Part shown: positions 2,960 through 56,820 of the stretch, one piece after another
Position numbering within the stretch: position 1 is the first letter of the stretch
Layout: the number at the start of each line of letters is the position of its first letter
Source: Flagellimonas aequoris
Lineage (GTDB): Bacteria > Bacteroidota > Bacteroidia > Flavobacteriales > Flavobacteriaceae
DNA length: 64,000 bases
Direction of reading: 5' to 3'
Assembly: GCF_003584165.1 (NCBI RefSeq)
Contig: NZ_QXFJ01000030.1
Coordinates: 558,001 to 622,000 of the forward strand
The notes under the pieces: model-generated
Database searches by the model: none
What the model saw: the letters and a program-made list of their open reading frames with translations, nothing else
Told to the model about the DNA's origin: nothing
Made by a program: the position numbers and the translations under genes

Positions 2960-4282
2960 TCACCGCTTTGTAAAATGGATGTTTTGAGTGCCCTGCTTCA
3001 TGGTCATACTGCCTTGGCTAGGGTCAAACTCCAAGGTTACCCCGGATTTATAATGTTTAAACTGGTCTTTGGCCACGGCATCCATGGGGTAGATCTGTTG
3101 CCCTTCGGGTTGGGCCAAGAGGTGGTTGCCTTCATGCGTCACCTTGATCACCAAACTGCTTTCCGTGCTGCCATACACTCCAAGATAGGGGGCAAGGTCT
3201 TCCTTGGTTACGGTATAGGTAGGTAAGGTGGGCAGATCAAAAGGCTCGCCAAAAGTATAGGCCAATACGGCTTGGTTCACTTGGCCCAAATCGTAGTTTT
3301 CGGCATTGGAGAGTAGGGCATAGGTCGTCTTTTCCTCAGGGAAATAATAATAGAATGCATTAAAACCATCGATCTTGCCATCATGGGTATAGGCCTTTTT
3401 ATGAAAAAGTTCCGCTTCAAAAATACCCATGCCATAGCCATCCGTTTGCGTCAACATGGTTTCCAAGGAGGTTTTGGACAGCAGTTTTCCTTGAAAGAGT
3501 GCTTCTATAAATTTCACTAAATCCGGGGCGGACATCAAAATACCCCCAGCTCCCATGGGAATGGTGTAATGGGTATCGGCCACGGGCTGCCAACTTATTT
3601 GGTAGGTGTAGGAGCGGGTCTTTTTCTCCTCGGGAAGGGTTGTATCCCCAAATTGGGTGTGTTGCAGATGCAAAGGGGTCAAAATCTTTTCCTGTAAAAT
3701 AAGAGCGTAGGGCTGTTGGTACACCTGTTGCAAAAGGTACGACAGCAATACGTAATTGGAATTGCTATAGGCGGCTTGGGTACCGGGTGCAAAATCGCTC
3801 CCTCCCGCCGCTATGATCTGTACCATTTCTTGCTCCGTCTTGGGTTGGGTGCGCCATTCCATAAAACCGGGGCCGTTCGTAAAATTATGGATACCACTGT
3901 GATGGTTCAGCATGTGCGCCACGGTAATCTTTTCCGCGTTCGGAATAGAGGGAAAATAGGCATCCAAGGCTTGGGACAGGGAGAGTTTGCCTTCTTCCAT
4001 AGCTTTTAGTATAAGAACGGCGGTAAAGGTTTTGGATATGGAACCTACCCGGTATAAGGTGTTTTCCGTTGCCGGAACTTTGGTTTCCAAGTTGGCAAAA
4101 CCGTACTGTGTGCCATAGATTTTTTGTCCGTTTCGGGATACTTGTAGGGTTCCCATAAACTTGTCCTGTTGGGCCAAGGTGTTCAAAAAAGTGTCCAATT
4201 GTTCTTGGGAAACCTGCTGGGCTTGCCCTAAACTGCAGAATAGGGCACAGAGAAGTATTTGAAAAAATTTTAGATGTGACAT
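2960..4282 (-). CDS. Secreted serine hydrolase, class C beta-lactamase family
   Basis: This 440-aa protein has a signal peptide (cleavage near AQQ, residues 20-23) and the penicillin-binding/beta-lactamase fold signature: SISK at 81-84 (nucleophile Ser81 and Lys84), YSN at 172-174 and a late HDGKIDGF motif in place of KTG. A C-terminal beta-rich extension follows (about 340-440), as in many esterase or D-aminopeptidase members. Substrate cannot be told from sequence: peptidase, esterase or lactamase are all possible, and proteins of this kind in Bacteroidota are usually not antibiotic resistance genes. It lies downstream of the M28 peptidase on the same strand, separated by a strong terminator, so it is probably transcribed separately. 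Confidence 0.88.
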   Translation of the reverse strand: MSHLKFFQILLCALFCSLGQAQQVSQEQLDTFLNTLAQQDKFMGTLQVSRNGQKIYGTQYGFANLETKVPATENTLYRVGSISKTFTAVLILKAMEEGKLSLSQALDAYFPSIPNAEKITVAHMLNHHSGIHNFTNGPGFMEWRTQPKTEQEMVQIIAAGGSDFAPGTQAAYSNSNYVLLSYLLQQVYQQPYALILQEKILTPLHLQHTQFGDTTLPEEKKTRSYTYQISWQPVADTHYTIPMGAGGILMSAPDLVKFIEALFQGKLLSKTSLETMLTQTDGYGMGIFEAELFHKKAYTHDGKIDGFNAFYYYFPEEKTTYALLSNAENYDLGQVNQAVLAYTFGEPFDLPTLPTYTVTKEDLAPYLGVYGSTESSLVIKVTHEGNHLLAQPEGQQIYPMDAVAKDQFKHYKSGVTLEFDPSQGSMTMKQGTQNIHFTKR

Positions 4283-51410: not shown

Positions 51411-52118
51411 ATGAAAGAAGAAGTTCGTATTGCACGCATTGCAGGTCTTATTTATTTGATTGTAGTGGTAACAGGCATATTCAATTTGGGTATACTGCCT
51501 TCCAATTTTTTAGTAAAACAAGATGCTGTTGCTACCTTTCAGAATATTACGGACAACTTGATGCTCTTCAAGTATTGGATACTCACAGGAATCGTTTGTT
51601 ATATTGCCTTTTTGCTCTTGCTCTAAGTGCTCTATCGATTGCTGAATTCCGTAAATAAAAACTATGCCCTGGCCATGGTTGCCTTGGTGGTGGTAAGCGT
51701 TCCCATTTCCTTGACGAATATTATTGACCAATTTACTATTCTAACGCTCGTTGAAAAAGCTAAAGGACCAAATGGAATGGATTTGGCTCAAGTGCAGGAG
51801 CAAGTCATGTATCTCTTTTATTCGTACAATAGTGGCCTAAGGGTAGTATCCATATTCTGGGGATTGTGGTTGTTCCCATTCGGATATTTGGTATATAGAT
51901 CAGGTTTCCTTCCTAAAATATTGGGAGGTCTGCTCATGTTCGGTTGCTTTGGCTATCTCGTGAATTTTTTGGGAAATTTTCTTTTCGAGGGATACAGAGG
52001 GAGCCTTCTATCCAAATTTATTACAAGACCCGGTAGTATTGGGGAAATAGGAATTTGCTTGTGGTTGTTGGTTGTGGGTGTTCGTCCAGGACAAGAAAGG
52101 CAAAAGACCTCTGATTAA
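51411..52118 (+). pseudogene. DUF4386 membrane protein gene split by an in-frame stop
   Basis: Two consecutive ORFs (51411-51626 and 51627-52118) lie in the same frame, separated only by TAA at 51624-51626. Joined they form a DUF4386 protein of about 235 aa with six membrane helices: EVRIARIAGLIYLIVVVTGIF, then WILTGIVCYIAFLLLL before the stop, VLYRLLNSVNKNYALAMVALV directly after it. The stop lies between helices two and three, so this is a nonsense mutation (or a sequencing error); restart at GTG 51627 would lack two helices. Confidence 0.85.
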
Positions 52119-52863: not shown

Positions 52864-53070
52864 TTTTTATAAAATTGGGATGAGGTTTTTCTCTTCAATC
52901 TAGGTATTGTGACAATATAATCCTAAGTTCATGGTCACATTCGTGTTTTGAATTGAAATATGCTTCAAACTATTGATTTTACTGGTATTGACATAAAGGT
53001 GACATCCAAATGTCGTGTTCTTGACAAGGTTCCCGAGATACATTTGTCCTAGAATCAAAACAAAAAAATC

Positions 53071-54828
53071 ATGAACAACACATCAATTGGAGAGCGTCTT
53101 AGGTATCAGAGGAAAATCAAAGGATATTCCCAAGAAGAGCTTTCCGGACGGACCAATGTAACCGTACGCACCATTCAACGCATCGAGAATGAAGAAGTTT
53201 CCCCCCATCTGAACACGGTTAAACTTTTGGCGGCCGCTTTGGAAGTCGAGGTTAGCGATTTACTGCCTTTGGATGACCCAAGGGAAGAGACCCTGAAGAA
53301 AAAATGGTTACTGCTTATTCATGCTACTCCCCTTTTGGGCATTTTTATTCCATTACTCAATGTGCTTGCACCCCTTTTTCTCTGGATCCACAAAAAGGAC
53401 GACAACCCTATCTATAATGAGCACGGCATTAAGGTGATCAACTTTCAGATCACGGCATTGCTGTTAGCGGTCCTGTCCTTCATAAGCTTAATGACCGTGG
53501 ACCTTTTTGGGTTCATCCTCTTTATTTCCATTGTACCCATTTGTGTGGGCATTGTCATTTTCAACATCATTTATGTACTGCAAAAGGACAAGTGCTATTA
53601 TCCTTTGTCCATTCCCTTTTTAAAATTGAAGAAGAAAAATGTGCCCAAGGCATTGTGCTTTCTTATCGGAATCTCGCTTTTGGCAAGCTGTACAGGACAA
53701 AAGGTAGAAACTATTGAAAGGTTGGATGGCTCTTTGATTACCAAGGATTCTGTCAGCCATAAAATAGACCAACTGATGGCCGATGCCAAGATTACCGGAA
53801 TGGCCGTTTCTATTTTCAATGATAATGAACCCATTTACCAACATACTTTTGGATATAAGGATTTTCCGAAAAAATACCCGTTGACAGATTCCACCAATAT
53901 TTATGGAGCCTCGTTCAGTAAAGCAGTTTTTGGGGTCTTGGTGATGAAATTGGTAGAAGATGGAATTATTGACTTAGATACACCTCTGGAATCCTATCTG
54001 CCCAAAAAAATATACGAATATGAGCCTAAGACCCGCTGGCATGATGATTTTTCCAGTTTAAAGGAAGACTCTCTTTACCATAAGATTACGGCTCGTATGT
54101 GCTTGGATCATACCACTGGTTTCAAAAATTACAGATGGTTCGAACCCGATTACAAACTGAGGGTCCATGGTACCCCGGGTGCTCAATTTGGCTATAGTGG
54201 TGAAGGGTTTATTTACCTGCAGGTAGTTTTGGAAAAGTTGACAGGTAAAGGATTGGATCAATTGGCAAAGGAAATTGTTTTTGACCCACTCGGCATGAAA
54301 AATTCTGCTTACGAATGGAAACCCAGATTTGATAAGGATTATGCAGTGGGCCATAATGAAAAGGGCGAAGCGTTGAAAAAGGACAAGGATAATGAACCGC
54401 GCGCTGGTGGTACTTTGGAAACCACTGCCGAGGATTACACCAAATTTTTGACCGCAGTGCTCCATGAAAAAATCATCAGCGAGGCATCTTATAACGAGAT
54501 TTTCACCCCCCATATCAGTATTCGTACCGAAAAACAATTCAGTGAAGGGGCCATAATTGTTACCGAAAAATACGATTCCATCCATCTAGGATATGGTTTG
54601 GGCTGGGGTTATTTTGAAACACCATACGGAAAGGCAGTATTCAAGGAAGGGCACGGCAGTGGTTTTGTACATCACTCCGTATTGTTTCCAGAAGCGGGGA
54701 AAGGCATCATGATCATGACCAACTCTGAAAATGGCAACAGCATTTTCAAGGAACTCCTAGAAGTGGCCATGGCCGACATTTATACCCCTTGGGAATGGGA
54801 GAATTATATCCCATATGACAAAAAATGA
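53071..54828 (+). CDS. Fusion protein: XRE HTH, DUF4870 membrane part and periplasmic serine hydrolase
   Basis: A 585-aa protein with three blocks. Residues about 7-67 are an XRE helix-turn-helix (RLRYQRKIKGYSQEELSGRTNVTVRTIQRIENEEV); about 85-175 is a DUF4870 region with three membrane helices; about 192-210 is a hydrophobic stretch ending in LLASC, just like a lipoprotein signal. Residues about 225-575 are a class C beta-lactamase-like domain with SFSK (nucleophile Ser near 278), YSGEG (about 370) and HGSGF near the end. The enzyme part would face the periplasm and the HTH the cytoplasm, a possible cell-wall sensor. The frame is open throughout. Confidence 0.85.
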   Translation: MNNTSIGERLRYQRKIKGYSQEELSGRTNVTVRTIQRIENEEVSPHLNTVKLLAAALEVEVSDLLPLDDPREETLKKKWLLLIHATPLLGIFIPLLNVLAPLFLWIHKKDDNPIYNEHGIKVINFQITALLLAVLSFISLMTVDLFGFILFISIVPICVGIVIFNIIYVLQKDKCYYPLSIPFLKLKKKNVPKALCFLIGISLLASCTGQKVETIERLDGSLITKDSVSHKIDQLMADAKITGMAVSIFNDNEPIYQHTFGYKDFPKKYPLTDSTNIYGASFSKAVFGVLVMKLVEDGIIDLDTPLESYLPKKIYEYEPKTRWHDDFSSLKEDSLYHKITARMCLDHTTGFKNYRWFEPDYKLRVHGTPGAQFGYSGEGFIYLQVVLEKLTGKGLDQLAKEIVFDPLGMKNSAYEWKPRFDKDYAVGHNEKGEALKKDKDNEPRAGGTLETTAEDYTKFLTAVLHEKIISEASYNEIFTPHISIRTEKQFSEGAIIVTEKYDSIHLGYGLGWGYFETPYGKAVFKEGHGSGFVHHSVLFPEAGKGIMIMTNSENGNSIFKELLEVAMADIYTPWEWENYIPYDKK

Positions 54829-54890: not shown

Positions 54891-55778
54891 ATGGGAAAAA
54901 ATAAATATACCGTTTCGGTAATCCAATTAAACCTGAACAATACCCCTGAAAACAATTTAAAAAAATGTGTGGAGTGGGTTAAAAAGGCAGCAGCCAAAGG
55001 CGCGGAGATCATTTCGTTGCCAGAGTTGTACAGTAGCCACTATTTCTGTCAAAGTGAGGATACGGAGAATTTCGCTTTTGCGGAACCGCTGTACAGCACC
55101 TCTTTTGAAGCGTTCAGTGCTTTGGCCAAGGAACTCGGTGTGGTGATCATTGTTCCCTTTTTTGAAAAACGCATGGCGGGTGTGTATCACAACAGCGCCT
55201 ACATTATAGATTCTGATGGTTCCGAAGCGGGATTGTACCGTAAGATGCACATTCCGGACGACCCCCACTTCTATGAAAAATTTTATTTCACCCCTGGGGA
55301 TCTTGGCTTCAAGACTATCCCAACCAAAAAGGGAAAGGTGGGTACCTTGATCTGTTGGGACCAATGGTATCCTGAAGCAGCCCGATTGACTGCCCTGCAA
55401 GGTGCCGAGGTACTCTTCTACCCTACTGCCATTGGATGGCATCCACAGGAGAAAGAAGAATACGGTGAAAAGCAACACGGTGCTTGGATGAATGTCATGA
55501 AAGGTCATGCCGTGGCCAATGGAGTTTATGTGGCCGCTGCCAACCGTATCGGATTGGAAAAGTACCTGCCAGATACCGCTGGAATCGAATTTTGGGGCTC
55601 CTCCTTTATTTGTGGGCCGCAAGGGGAAATTCTGGCACAAGCTTCCCATGACCAAGAAGAAATATTGATGGCCGAAGTGGATCTGGACCTTCAGGAAAAT
55701 GTGCGCCAAAACTGGCCTTTCCTTCGTGATAGAAGGATTGATATGTACGGAGAAATAACCAAAAGGGCAATCGACTGA
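54891..55778 (+). CDS. aguB: N-carbamoylputrescine amidase
   Basis: A 295-aa nitrilase-superfamily enzyme. The catalytic triad is visible: Glu in SLPELYSSHY (about residue 42), Lys in YRKMHIPDDPHFYEKFYFTPGD (about 117) and Cys in LICWDQWYPE (about 154). The sequence HIPDDPxFYEKFYF is specific for N-carbamoylputrescine amidase. It makes putrescine, CO2 and ammonia. Two bp upstream of aguA, so the pair is one operon. Confidence 0.94.
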   Translation: MGKNKYTVSVIQLNLNNTPENNLKKCVEWVKKAAAKGAEIISLPELYSSHYFCQSEDTENFAFAEPLYSTSFEAFSALAKELGVVIIVPFFEKRMAGVYHNSAYIIDSDGSEAGLYRKMHIPDDPHFYEKFYFTPGDLGFKTIPTKKGKVGTLICWDQWYPEAARLTALQGAEVLFYPTAIGWHPQEKEEYGEKQHGAWMNVMKGHAVANGVYVAAANRIGLEKYLPDTAGIEFWGSSFICGPQGEILAQASHDQEEILMAEVDLDLQENVRQNWPFLRDRRIDMYGEITKRAID

Positions 55779-55779
55779 T

Positions 55780-56820
55780 ATGGCTAAAACTGCGTGGCGA
55801 TTTCCCGCGGAATGGGAAAAACAACAGGGCATTTTACTGTGTTTCCCCCACAATGGAAACGACTGGCCCGGTAAATACGGTGCCATTCAATGGGCTTTTG
55901 TAGAGTTCATTAAAAAGGTAGCCACTTTTGAAGAGGTGTTTTTGGTAGTGGCTTCCGAGGAACTCAAAAACAAAGTGCTCGATCTCCTTCAAACCGCCCA
56001 TGTAAATGTAGATAAGGTTTCCTTCATCATTCACAAGACCAACCGAAGCTGGATGCGCGACTCTGGCCCTATCATTGTGAAAAATGGTAAGGAAAGAAAG
56101 GCCCTCAACTTCAATTTTAATGGATGGGCCAAATATTCCAATTATAAATTGGATCGGCACGTTCCCGAAAAAGTGTCACAATCGCTAAAAATTCCTTTGG
56201 AACAAGTCAAATACAAGGGCAAACCCGTGGTATTGGAAGGAGGAGCCATTGACGTGAACGGTAAGGGCACCTTGATTACTTCGGAAGAATGCCTGTTGGA
56301 CCCAAAGATACAAGTGCGCAATCCTGGTTTTAGTAAGGCCGATTATGAAGCCATTTTTAAAGAATACCTTGGGGTTACCCATACCATCTGGTTGGGAGAT
56401 GGCATCAAAGGCGACGATACGCATGGACATATTGATGATTTGGCACGATTTGTCAATGAAAACACCATTGTTACGGTTGTGGAATCCGATAAGAAGGATG
56501 CCAATTATGCGGTCCTACAAGAGAATTTGAAACGTTTGGAAAGTGCGGTTTTAGAAGATGGTGCCAAGCCAAAAATTGTTACCCTTCCCATGCCCAAGCG
56601 AATCGATTTTGATGGAGTGGTACTCCCTGCCAGTTACGCCAATTTCCTCATTTTGAACAAAGCTGTTCTGGTTCCTACTTTTAACGACTCAAGGGATCGG
56701 GAGGCCTTGAACATGCTAGTGGATGTGTTCCCTGATAGGGAAGTGATCGGGATCAGTGCCATCGACCTCATTTGGGGATTTGGCACCTTGCACTGCTTGA
56801 GTCAGCAGATACCATTGTAG
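55780..56820 (+). CDS. aguA: Agmatine deiminase
   Basis: A 346-aa agmatine deiminase of the peptidylarginine deiminase fold: NRSWMRDSGPI (about 86-96), GGAIDVNGKGTL, GDDTHGHIDDLARF (about 208-221, catalytic His/Asp) and the C-terminal nucleophile Cys in GTLHCLSQQ (about 340). It turns agmatine to N-carbamoylputrescine, which the upstream aguB product uses. The order aguB-aguA is typical for Bacteroidota. Confidence 0.95.
   Translation: MAKTAWRFPAEWEKQQGILLCFPHNGNDWPGKYGAIQWAFVEFIKKVATFEEVFLVVASEELKNKVLDLLQTAHVNVDKVSFIIHKTNRSWMRDSGPIIVKNGKERKALNFNFNGWAKYSNYKLDRHVPEKVSQSLKIPLEQVKYKGKPVVLEGGAIDVNGKGTLITSEECLLDPKIQVRNPGFSKADYEAIFKEYLGVTHTIWLGDGIKGDDTHGHIDDLARFVNENTIVTVVESDKKDANYAVLQENLKRLESAVLEDGAKPKIVTLPMPKRIDFDGVVLPASYANFLILNKAVLVPTFNDSRDREALNMLVDVFPDREVIGISAIDLIWGFGTLHCLSQQIPL

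Follow-up and report, generated by a model that had tools for sequence, protein, structure and literature searches.

A candidate regulator-enzyme polyprotein: an XRE-DUF4870 membrane protein fused in frame to an S12 hydrolase in Flagellimonas aequoris and related bacteria

Related systems

In BlaR1 and MecR1, a periplasmic penicillin-recognising fold, a class D-like sensor, is linked through membrane helices to gene control. The FbcH precursor of the Bradyrhizobium cytochrome b-c1 complex consists of a membrane protein, an internal signal peptide and a periplasmic domain, and is cut in two. Here we describe a gene that can be compared with both, located at positions 53071-54828 of a 64,000-nucleotide stretch of Flagellimonas aequoris DNA (contig NZ_QXFJ01000030.1, positions 558,001 to 622,000 of the forward strand; the whole stretch is referred to as the window), which joins an XRE-type helix-turn-helix (HTH) domain, the membrane domain DUF4870 and an S12 hydrolase. 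It resembles BlaR1 and MecR1 in the general logic of a periplasmic fold linked through the membrane to gene control, but differs from them in the S12 type of the would-be sensor fold, in the presence of the DNA-binding domain in the same chain, in the reversed domain order and in apparent self-regulation. With FbcH it shares the polyprotein layout, whereas FbcH serves a respiratory complex and does not combine a regulator with an enzyme. We propose, with a probability of about 0.55, that the gene encodes a polyprotein that is split at the internal signal peptide into a membrane-bound autoregulator and an exported hydrolase.

The joining of an HTH domain to a membrane domain in one chain is also found in BcrR of Enterococcus faecalis, a one-component transmembrane regulator that senses bacitracin and acts directly on its promoter (PMC3968067), and that is anchored by a four-helix membrane domain (PMC13384398). 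As described in the former report, BcrR differs in controlling a separate transporter operon, in having its own transcription unit and in lacking a fused enzyme (PMC3968067). More generally, proteins with a DNA-binding domain and a transmembrane region in one chain, the transmembrane transcription regulators (TTRs), are enriched in Bacteroidota; their most common extra domains are those of two-component systems, and the main text of the TTR survey has no mention of DUF4870, lactamase or peptidase (PMC10269533). The DUF4870 (HOTT) family is reported to start with a reentrant-like helix pair, followed by two more helices, and held only uncharacterised proteins, its non-magnetosome members being so described in 2024 (PMC11628618). 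The DUF4870 domain studied here differs in that it is tied to an HTH domain, an upstream site and a hydrolase. By its domain content the N-terminal module is a TTR, and by analogy it would work like the BcrR-type membrane regulators.

Comparison of the N-terminal half with plasmid sequences gave 149 records, three of which cover at least 80% of the query, and showed no sequence link to BcrR; the 40 matches listed cover mostly the HTH domain or the HTH domain with the first helix. One Enterococcus plasmid record lies beside a bacteriocin gene and is not bcrR, and in one Spirosoma plasmid record no hydrolase directly follows the HTH gene. In the open-access literature we found no description of DUF4870 combined with an HTH domain, of its operator or of this fusion, and no paper on CPBP proteins together with the XRE family and a membrane domain.

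Architecture and distribution of the fused gene

The gene and its parts have the following window positions.

53071..54828, + strand: fused XRE-DUF4870-signal-S12 hydrolase gene, 585 amino acids, ATG start, single open frame
53098..53262, + strand: XRE/HTH_3 DNA-binding domain, residues 10-64, Pfam E-value 1.5e-11
53299..53622, + strand: DUF4870 (HOTT, Tic20 superfamily) membrane domain, residues 77-184, Pfam E-value 1.6e-22
53626..53691, + strand: predicted internal signal peptide or fifth membrane helix, approximately residues 186-207, with the lipobox LASC at 53680-53691
53758..54750, + strand: S12 hydrolase domain (PF00144), residues 230-560, Pfam E-value 5.1e-46

An earlier note on this DNA, made from the sequence alone, had placed an XRE HTH, DUF4870 and a beta-lactamase-like domain in one frame, and the open 585-residue reading frame bears this out, with HTH_3, DUF4870 and PF00144 matches that each exceed the curated Pfam score (80.0 bits against a gathering score of 25 for PF09685, DUF4870; 157.8 bits against a cut-off of 27 for PF00144). 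Since a DNA-binding domain and membrane helices share one chain, the protein has the domain composition of a membrane-bound one-component regulator. The AlphaFold model of the full chain, based on 28 sequences (mean pLDDT 82.3), contains the HTH, helices 70-91, 96-108, 113-142 and 146-172 in the N-terminal half, a low-confidence helix 191-205 at the join and a well-predicted S12 domain. Fold searches with the N-terminal half returned HTH domains (best Foldseek E-value 3e-3), among them the DNA-binding domains of SinR and P22 c2 with a VIA Z of approximately 12 over 62-65 residues. No Tic20 entry appears among the N-half fold matches listed, which span mainly residues 1-68 and scarcely cover DUF4870. 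Lysine and arginine residues sit on the DUF4870 loops that would be cytoplasmic if the HTH is inside, and the predicted topology thus places the hydrolase outside the cell.

Scanning genome contigs and searching 299 genomes of the window's family, we obtained 48 full-length open reading frames with the same one-frame architecture, 44 of them distinct, with 34-100% identity to the window protein; such a search had been proposed in the earlier note. Four rows identical over the last 500 residues (L038, L039, L047 and one of L027/L052) were dropped as repeats, and the contig fragments L030 and L031, the broken pieces of L037 and two later fused finds (L073 and L075) stand outside the counts. The hosts include many Flavobacteriaceae, Mangrovivirga and three Alteromonas (Pseudomonadota). 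One genus group contributes 17 of the 44 loci, and hence species counts do not represent independent events. In 12 close pairs the nonsynonymous substitution rate (dN) is far below the synonymous rate (dS) in all three domains, being 0-0.045 versus 0.11-0.99 for the HTH and 0.008-0.078 versus 0.18-2.36 for the hydrolase (dS was incomputable for DUF4870 in one pair and for the signal region in some). A frame that is open in 44 distinct loci with dN far below dS excludes a sequencing error or chance read-through, and on these comparisons the fusion is real and old.

A conserved operator-like site upstream of the gene

Upstream of the start codon, beyond the positions covered by the earlier note, three elements were recognised.

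52989..53014, + strand: operator-like site TGACATAAAGGTGACATCCAAATGTC, composed of TGACA (52989-52993), TGACA (53000-53004) and TGTC (53011-53014) with an 11-bp period
53022..53025, + strand: putative fourth box, degenerate (TGAC), a further 11 bp along; its last base is C in 58 of 65 cases
53039..53046, + strand: TACATTTG, a -7-like element TAnnTTTG, 24 bp past the operator core in relatives too

Alignment of the upstream regions of the window gene and 16 close relatives revealed an isolated conserved block, TGACATAAAGGTGACATCTAAATGTCGTG, amid diverged sequence. The core, defined as TGACA-N6-TGACA-N6-TGTC (14 defined bases, at most two mismatches allowed), precedes all 65 XRE-DUF4870 transcription units of the close clade, fused or not: 41 of 41 Bacteroidota fusions of the window type (type 1), 3 of 3 fusions to a different S12 hydrolase (type 2), 3 of 3 Alteromonas fusions, and 16 of 16 regulator-led and 2 of 2 CPBP-led stand-alone units. 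The same threshold was reached by 0.09% of 6,500 dinucleotide shuffles, and by none of the six upstream regions of free hydrolases (best 4-8 mismatches). In the two genomes where the CPBP gene comes first, the regulator's own start is without the site, which a further look then located ahead of CPBP, at the head of the operon.

The element TAnnTTTG, which we take to be the -7 promoter consensus of Bacteroidota and which TACATTTG fits, is located exactly 24 bp past the core in 39 of the 41 type-1 units, in two of the three type-2 units (23 bp in the third) and in all 16 and both of the stand-alone units. This amounts to 59 of 62 Bacteroidota units at 24 bp and one more at 23 bp; at the usual distance it is found in none of the three Alteromonas units. 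The later finds L073 and L075 have an exact site with TAnnTTTG 24 bp on. No obvious -33 box lies beside the site, which leans toward activation. The arrangement GACA-N6-TGTC of the second and third boxes is close to the BcrR operator, reportedly GACA(N)7TGTC. The Alteromonas loci L033-L035 (approximately positions 3905-3950) have a fourth, clearly recognisable TGTC box, which makes the array symmetric (TGACA/TGACA/TGTC/TGTC).

In the window's own 4.24-Mb genome the exact core occurs once, at the gene's own promoter, with no further exact targets; at up to two mismatches there are five hits, two of them overlaps of the same site, versus five for the reversed pattern. Across the 299 family genomes the exact core is present in 23, once in each (7 for the reversed-pattern control). 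Twenty of these sites stand before an XRE-DUF4870 gene (at 174 bp in G085), one before a decayed remnant of it in G037, and two elsewhere. Thus the exact site marks the gene promoter in 20 of 37 genomes with the gene, versus 2 of 262 without it, one of these being the remnant (Fisher p approximately 5e-19, kinship ignored). In G037 (L146:3689-3831, - strand) the site and the first 20 or so codons of the lost gene remain, beside an acyltransferase-like gene (71% identity) that is also the neighbour in L021 and the Ulvibacterium relatives.

The natural reading of this distribution is that the XRE-DUF4870 proteins of this clade are dedicated autoregulators with an operator at their own promoter. 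The DNA-regulating role foreseen in the earlier note is therefore supported by the conserved operator-like site, not as control of other genes: the scan of the gene's own genome points to self-regulation. Alternatively, the upstream site might serve another regulator, with the XRE-DUF4870 half controlling other genes or having lost its function. XRE proteins can indeed have degenerate distant sites that the three-box pattern would miss. However, the site accompanies XRE-DUF4870 in fused, stand-alone, CPBP-first and Alteromonas contexts and in the G037 remnant, it is nearly confined to genomes with the gene, and the dN of the HTH is very low, which makes this explanation highly improbable.

Unfused relatives and hydrolase partners

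XRE-DUF4870 genes (E-value 1e-40 or better) were detected in 37 of the 299 family genomes, one in each: 16 are fused as in the window, three belong to type 2 (open frames of 659-675 amino acids with a lipobox-like Cys at the join) and 18 are stand-alone. A CPBP/Rce1-like protease gene, each scoring above the Pfam cut-off, adjoins all 18 of the latter, 23-74 bp downstream in 16 and directly upstream in two (G154 and G125).

Separate hydrolases next to XRE-DUF4870 genes were also observed. The two genes stand in tandem in G310 and G616, two genomes from another family of the order, where a hydrolase with its own signal peptide begins about 108 bp after XRE-DUF4870. An S12 gene follows the unfused regulator in L078, L079 and L083, the separate hydrolase of L078 having 36% identity over 362 amino acids to the fused hydrolase half. 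In G430 the gene after XRE-DUF4870 codes for an S12 enzyme whose signal is lipoprotein-like, and in G300 for a putative esterase. Free hydrolases of the fused family with no XRE-DUF4870 within the stretch fetched were found in six loci. These separate XRE-DUF4870 genes, separate hydrolases and tandem pairs agree with the earlier suggestion that two genes have fused; the doubt attached to it, that relatives have two separate genes and the fusion is due to a sequence error, is borne out as to the separate genes and refuted as to the error. The presence of the same control site before fused and separate forms indicates that the join is real and that cutting of the chain probably yields two functional parts.

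In four loci (L063, L067, L137 and L145) the stand-alone XRE-DUF4870 gene with one or two CPBP genes lies between asparagine-synthase-like and gyrB-like genes (names assigned by eye), an interval that appears to be a stable chromosomal spot for this pair. The CPBP protein beside one stand-alone regulator (L138:2823-3281) has only 153 amino acids, with a PF02517 match that stops at position 74 of 93, and its gene is perhaps truncated or frameshifted. A free hydrolase split over two overlapping frames (L037:3994-4586) is probably a broken gene.

The hydrolase half

The S12 assignment follows from the Pfam match and the SxxK motif. The window protein has S281-x-x-K284, Y375-S-G and K525-E-G as catalytic motifs. 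SxxK is kept in all 44 distinct fused loci, as are the catalytic Ser, Lys and Tyr; the YxN position is YSG in 41 and YNS in the three Alteromonas proteins, and at the KTG position K occurs in 40, E in 37 and G in 42. Foldseek matched the domain to the 2qmi and AmpC structures. The Pyrococcus homologue 2qmi, AmpC, AmpH and D-aminopeptidase share this fold with SxxK and Tyr, and differ from the fused hydrolase in that YSG here replaces YxN. The NCBIfam family bla_class_C gave 53.9 bits against a cut-off of 415, and each of the 25 families listed out of 48 matched missed its cut-off. Class C beta-lactamase function is thus unsupported, with YSG for YxN, KEG for KTG and the missed bla_class_C cut-off: of the class C beta-lactamase-like domain proposed earlier, the S12 fold stands, and by its motifs the domain is not a class C enzyme.

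No HE..H motif was found in the 585 residues, and no metallopeptidase among nine Pfam families at E-values up to 1. Without an HEXXH metalloprotease motif, and with an active-site motif departing from those of beta-lactamases, the BlaR1-like beta-lactam sensor suggested in the earlier note is not supported. A phage origin or a defence role was also considered and rejected: PHROGs matches are HTH regulators, the lysin-like tail-protein family phrog_382 (E-value 5.8e-34) and families without known function, one of which matches the S12 part, and PADLOC matches cover the HTH region only.

The join contains an internal export signal

The LLASC lipobox that had been noticed at the join was confirmed at residues 203-207 of the window protein: LLAS/C207 follows a basic segment KKKNVPK and a hydrophobic core. 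The signal is internal, at about residues 186-207 of 585, rather than N-terminal as in a lipoprotein. A lipobox-like Cys is present at the join in 36 of the 44 distinct fused loci, with a PROSITE-like core in 28, Asn at position -2 in two and Asn at position -1 in six. The eight joins without Cys have signal-peptidase-I-like ends, judged by eye (e.g. GFA/Q in L051). No column of the join (residues 185-213, 29 columns) is conserved at 90% or more, the counts for the HTH, DUF4870 and the hydrolase being 30 of 68, 37 of 116 and 113 of 372, respectively, and the signal region is fast-evolving in the 12 close pairs. The retention of an export signal of either type, with no conserved column, favours a polyprotein over a one-piece BlaR1-like sensor. 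Of the two fates offered in the earlier note, a single sensor chain or cutting at the lipobox, the latter is thus the better supported, since an export signal is retained at the join, which has the evolutionary pattern of a signal peptide.

In the one-piece alternative, the chain would stay uncut and the periplasmic hydrolase fold would sense a cell-wall fragment or beta-lactam, and the HTH would receive the signal by way of the last helix and DUF4870. It accords with the constraint on all parts of one frame, with the catalytic residues kept in every fused locus and with the recurrence of the fusion with several S12 domains, as expected if coupling matters. Nevertheless, we regard it as unlikely: the helix needed to relay the signal is less conserved than any other segment and switches between two signal-peptide types, the stand-alone versions, which have the same site, do without a covalent link, and the chain lacks HEXXH and mostly has YSG in place of YxN.

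A variant is regulated cleavage, where the lipobox is cut under some conditions only, the cut and uncut regulators differ in DNA binding, and export capacity or lipidation is the signal. The Asn residues at -1 (6 of 44) and -2 (2 of 44) suggest tunable cutting efficiency, and autoregulation would supply the output; the stand-alone regulators, however, stop before such a site and have the same operator core, so that basic sensing seems independent of cleavage, and we consider this variant distinctly doubtful. Internal initiation, by which a start codon in the join would yield a free lipoprotein hydrolase beside the fusion, is barely credible. GTG at codon 191 in the window would give MPKALCFLIGISLLASC, a plausible lipoprotein signal, but this codon is seen in L001-L003 only. 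A conserved internal start was rejected as a general feature, ATG or GTG being aligned to codons 176-195 in 19 of 44 loci at varying places.

History of joining

In the tree of N-terminal halves, the type-2 fusions and the CPBP-linked genes each make up a single clade. In the hydrolase tree, L025, L036 and L027 (L053 less firmly) group with free hydrolases, apart from the other fused ones, while their N-terminal halves (L025, L036 and L027) sit among the other fused proteins. Both trees were built rapidly and carry no bootstrap values, and that of the hydrolases has a long-branch warning for the Alteromonas rows. Alteromonas proteins (L033 and L034) have only 28-29% identity to the window protein in the hydrolase half, versus 59-60% in the N-terminal half. 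The type-2 fusions, this gap and the discordance of the trees suggest that joining or replacement at this point has probably happened more than once.

Proposed mechanism

According to the polyprotein scheme, the XRE HTH and DUF4870 half would be a membrane-bound one-component transcription regulator. It would bind the 26-bp array of TGACA/TGTC boxes, with their 11-bp period, just ahead of its own -7 element, and regulate a single transcript coding for itself and the hydrolase. In stand-alone relatives the hydrolase, a CPBP intramembrane protease or an S12 enzyme, is a separate gene; in the fused forms an S12 hydrolase gene appears to have been joined in frame, bringing its own signal peptide. 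In the resulting polyprotein the HTH would lie inside the cell and the DUF4870 helices in the membrane, and the former signal peptide would serve as the final helix. Lipoprotein signal peptidase would cut at Cys207, and signal peptidase I in the relatives without Cys, to give a membrane autoregulator and a free lipid-anchored hydrolase. The inducing signal is probably the state of the envelope or membrane.

A broader generalisation, to which we give even odds, is that these proteins form a bacterial polyprotein class in which signal peptidase II or I frees an autoregulator from a hydrolase, DUF4870 acts as a membrane-embedded sensor, and the operator is found only at its own promoter, the module having been re-used beside CPBP and joined to S12 enzymes several times independently, once outside Bacteroidota.

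Several points weigh against the proposed scheme. We infer DNA binding, membrane insertion and cleavage alike from the sequences, and a different regulator could be the one that binds the site. It is unusual for a lipobox to be internal, and no such case appeared in the titles and abstract openings of the literature matches listed. Six of the 36 Cys joins carry Asn at -1, which is rare in ordinary lipobox-like N-termini (0 of 26 and 1 of 62 in two counts), and may be cut poorly or not at all. The 18 CPBP-linked genes, being one clade, are not 18 independent associations. Finally, the core is absent from 11 distant HTH-DUF4870 loci (L078-L088; best 4-7 mismatches), of which four (L078, L079, L083 and L084) have a hydrolase as the next gene and seven have no obvious hydrolase next door (by eye); the rule is therefore established for the closer clade only.

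Upstream of six of these distant genes (L085-L088, L080 and L083) related yet different boxes were noticed, e.g. GACA-N4-TGTCG-N6-TGTCG in L086, and some of the 11 loci show related boxes with 11-bp spacing; this suggests a wider operator family among distant HTH-DUF4870 genes.

DUF4870/HOTT proteins are widespread, and the near-unique upstream site makes one branch of them a testable transcription system whose target would be itself and its hydrolase partner. Should the chain indeed be cleaved at the internal signal, the gene would represent a clean bacterial regulator-enzyme polyprotein with fixed stoichiometry. The analysis also cautions against reading proteins annotated as HTH plus beta-lactamase as resistance sensors.

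Neighbouring genes

Comparison of 32 neighbourhoods (the window and 31 loci) revealed no conserved operon partner of the fused genes, the widest families reaching 13 loci. A porin-like gene upstream and amidase-like and agmatine-deiminase-like genes downstream are, with few exceptions, confined to the genus group of the window. Two polyamine-route-like genes at 54891-56820, presumably encoding an N-carbamoylputrescine-amidase-like and an agmatine-deiminase-like protein, follow the fused gene directly and are shared only within this group. At 51411-52118, the frame of a membrane protein that we take to be DUF4386-like is interrupted by one in-frame stop (51624-51626), its second part beginning at once with GTG; judged by this stop, it is a pseudogene or a sequence error.

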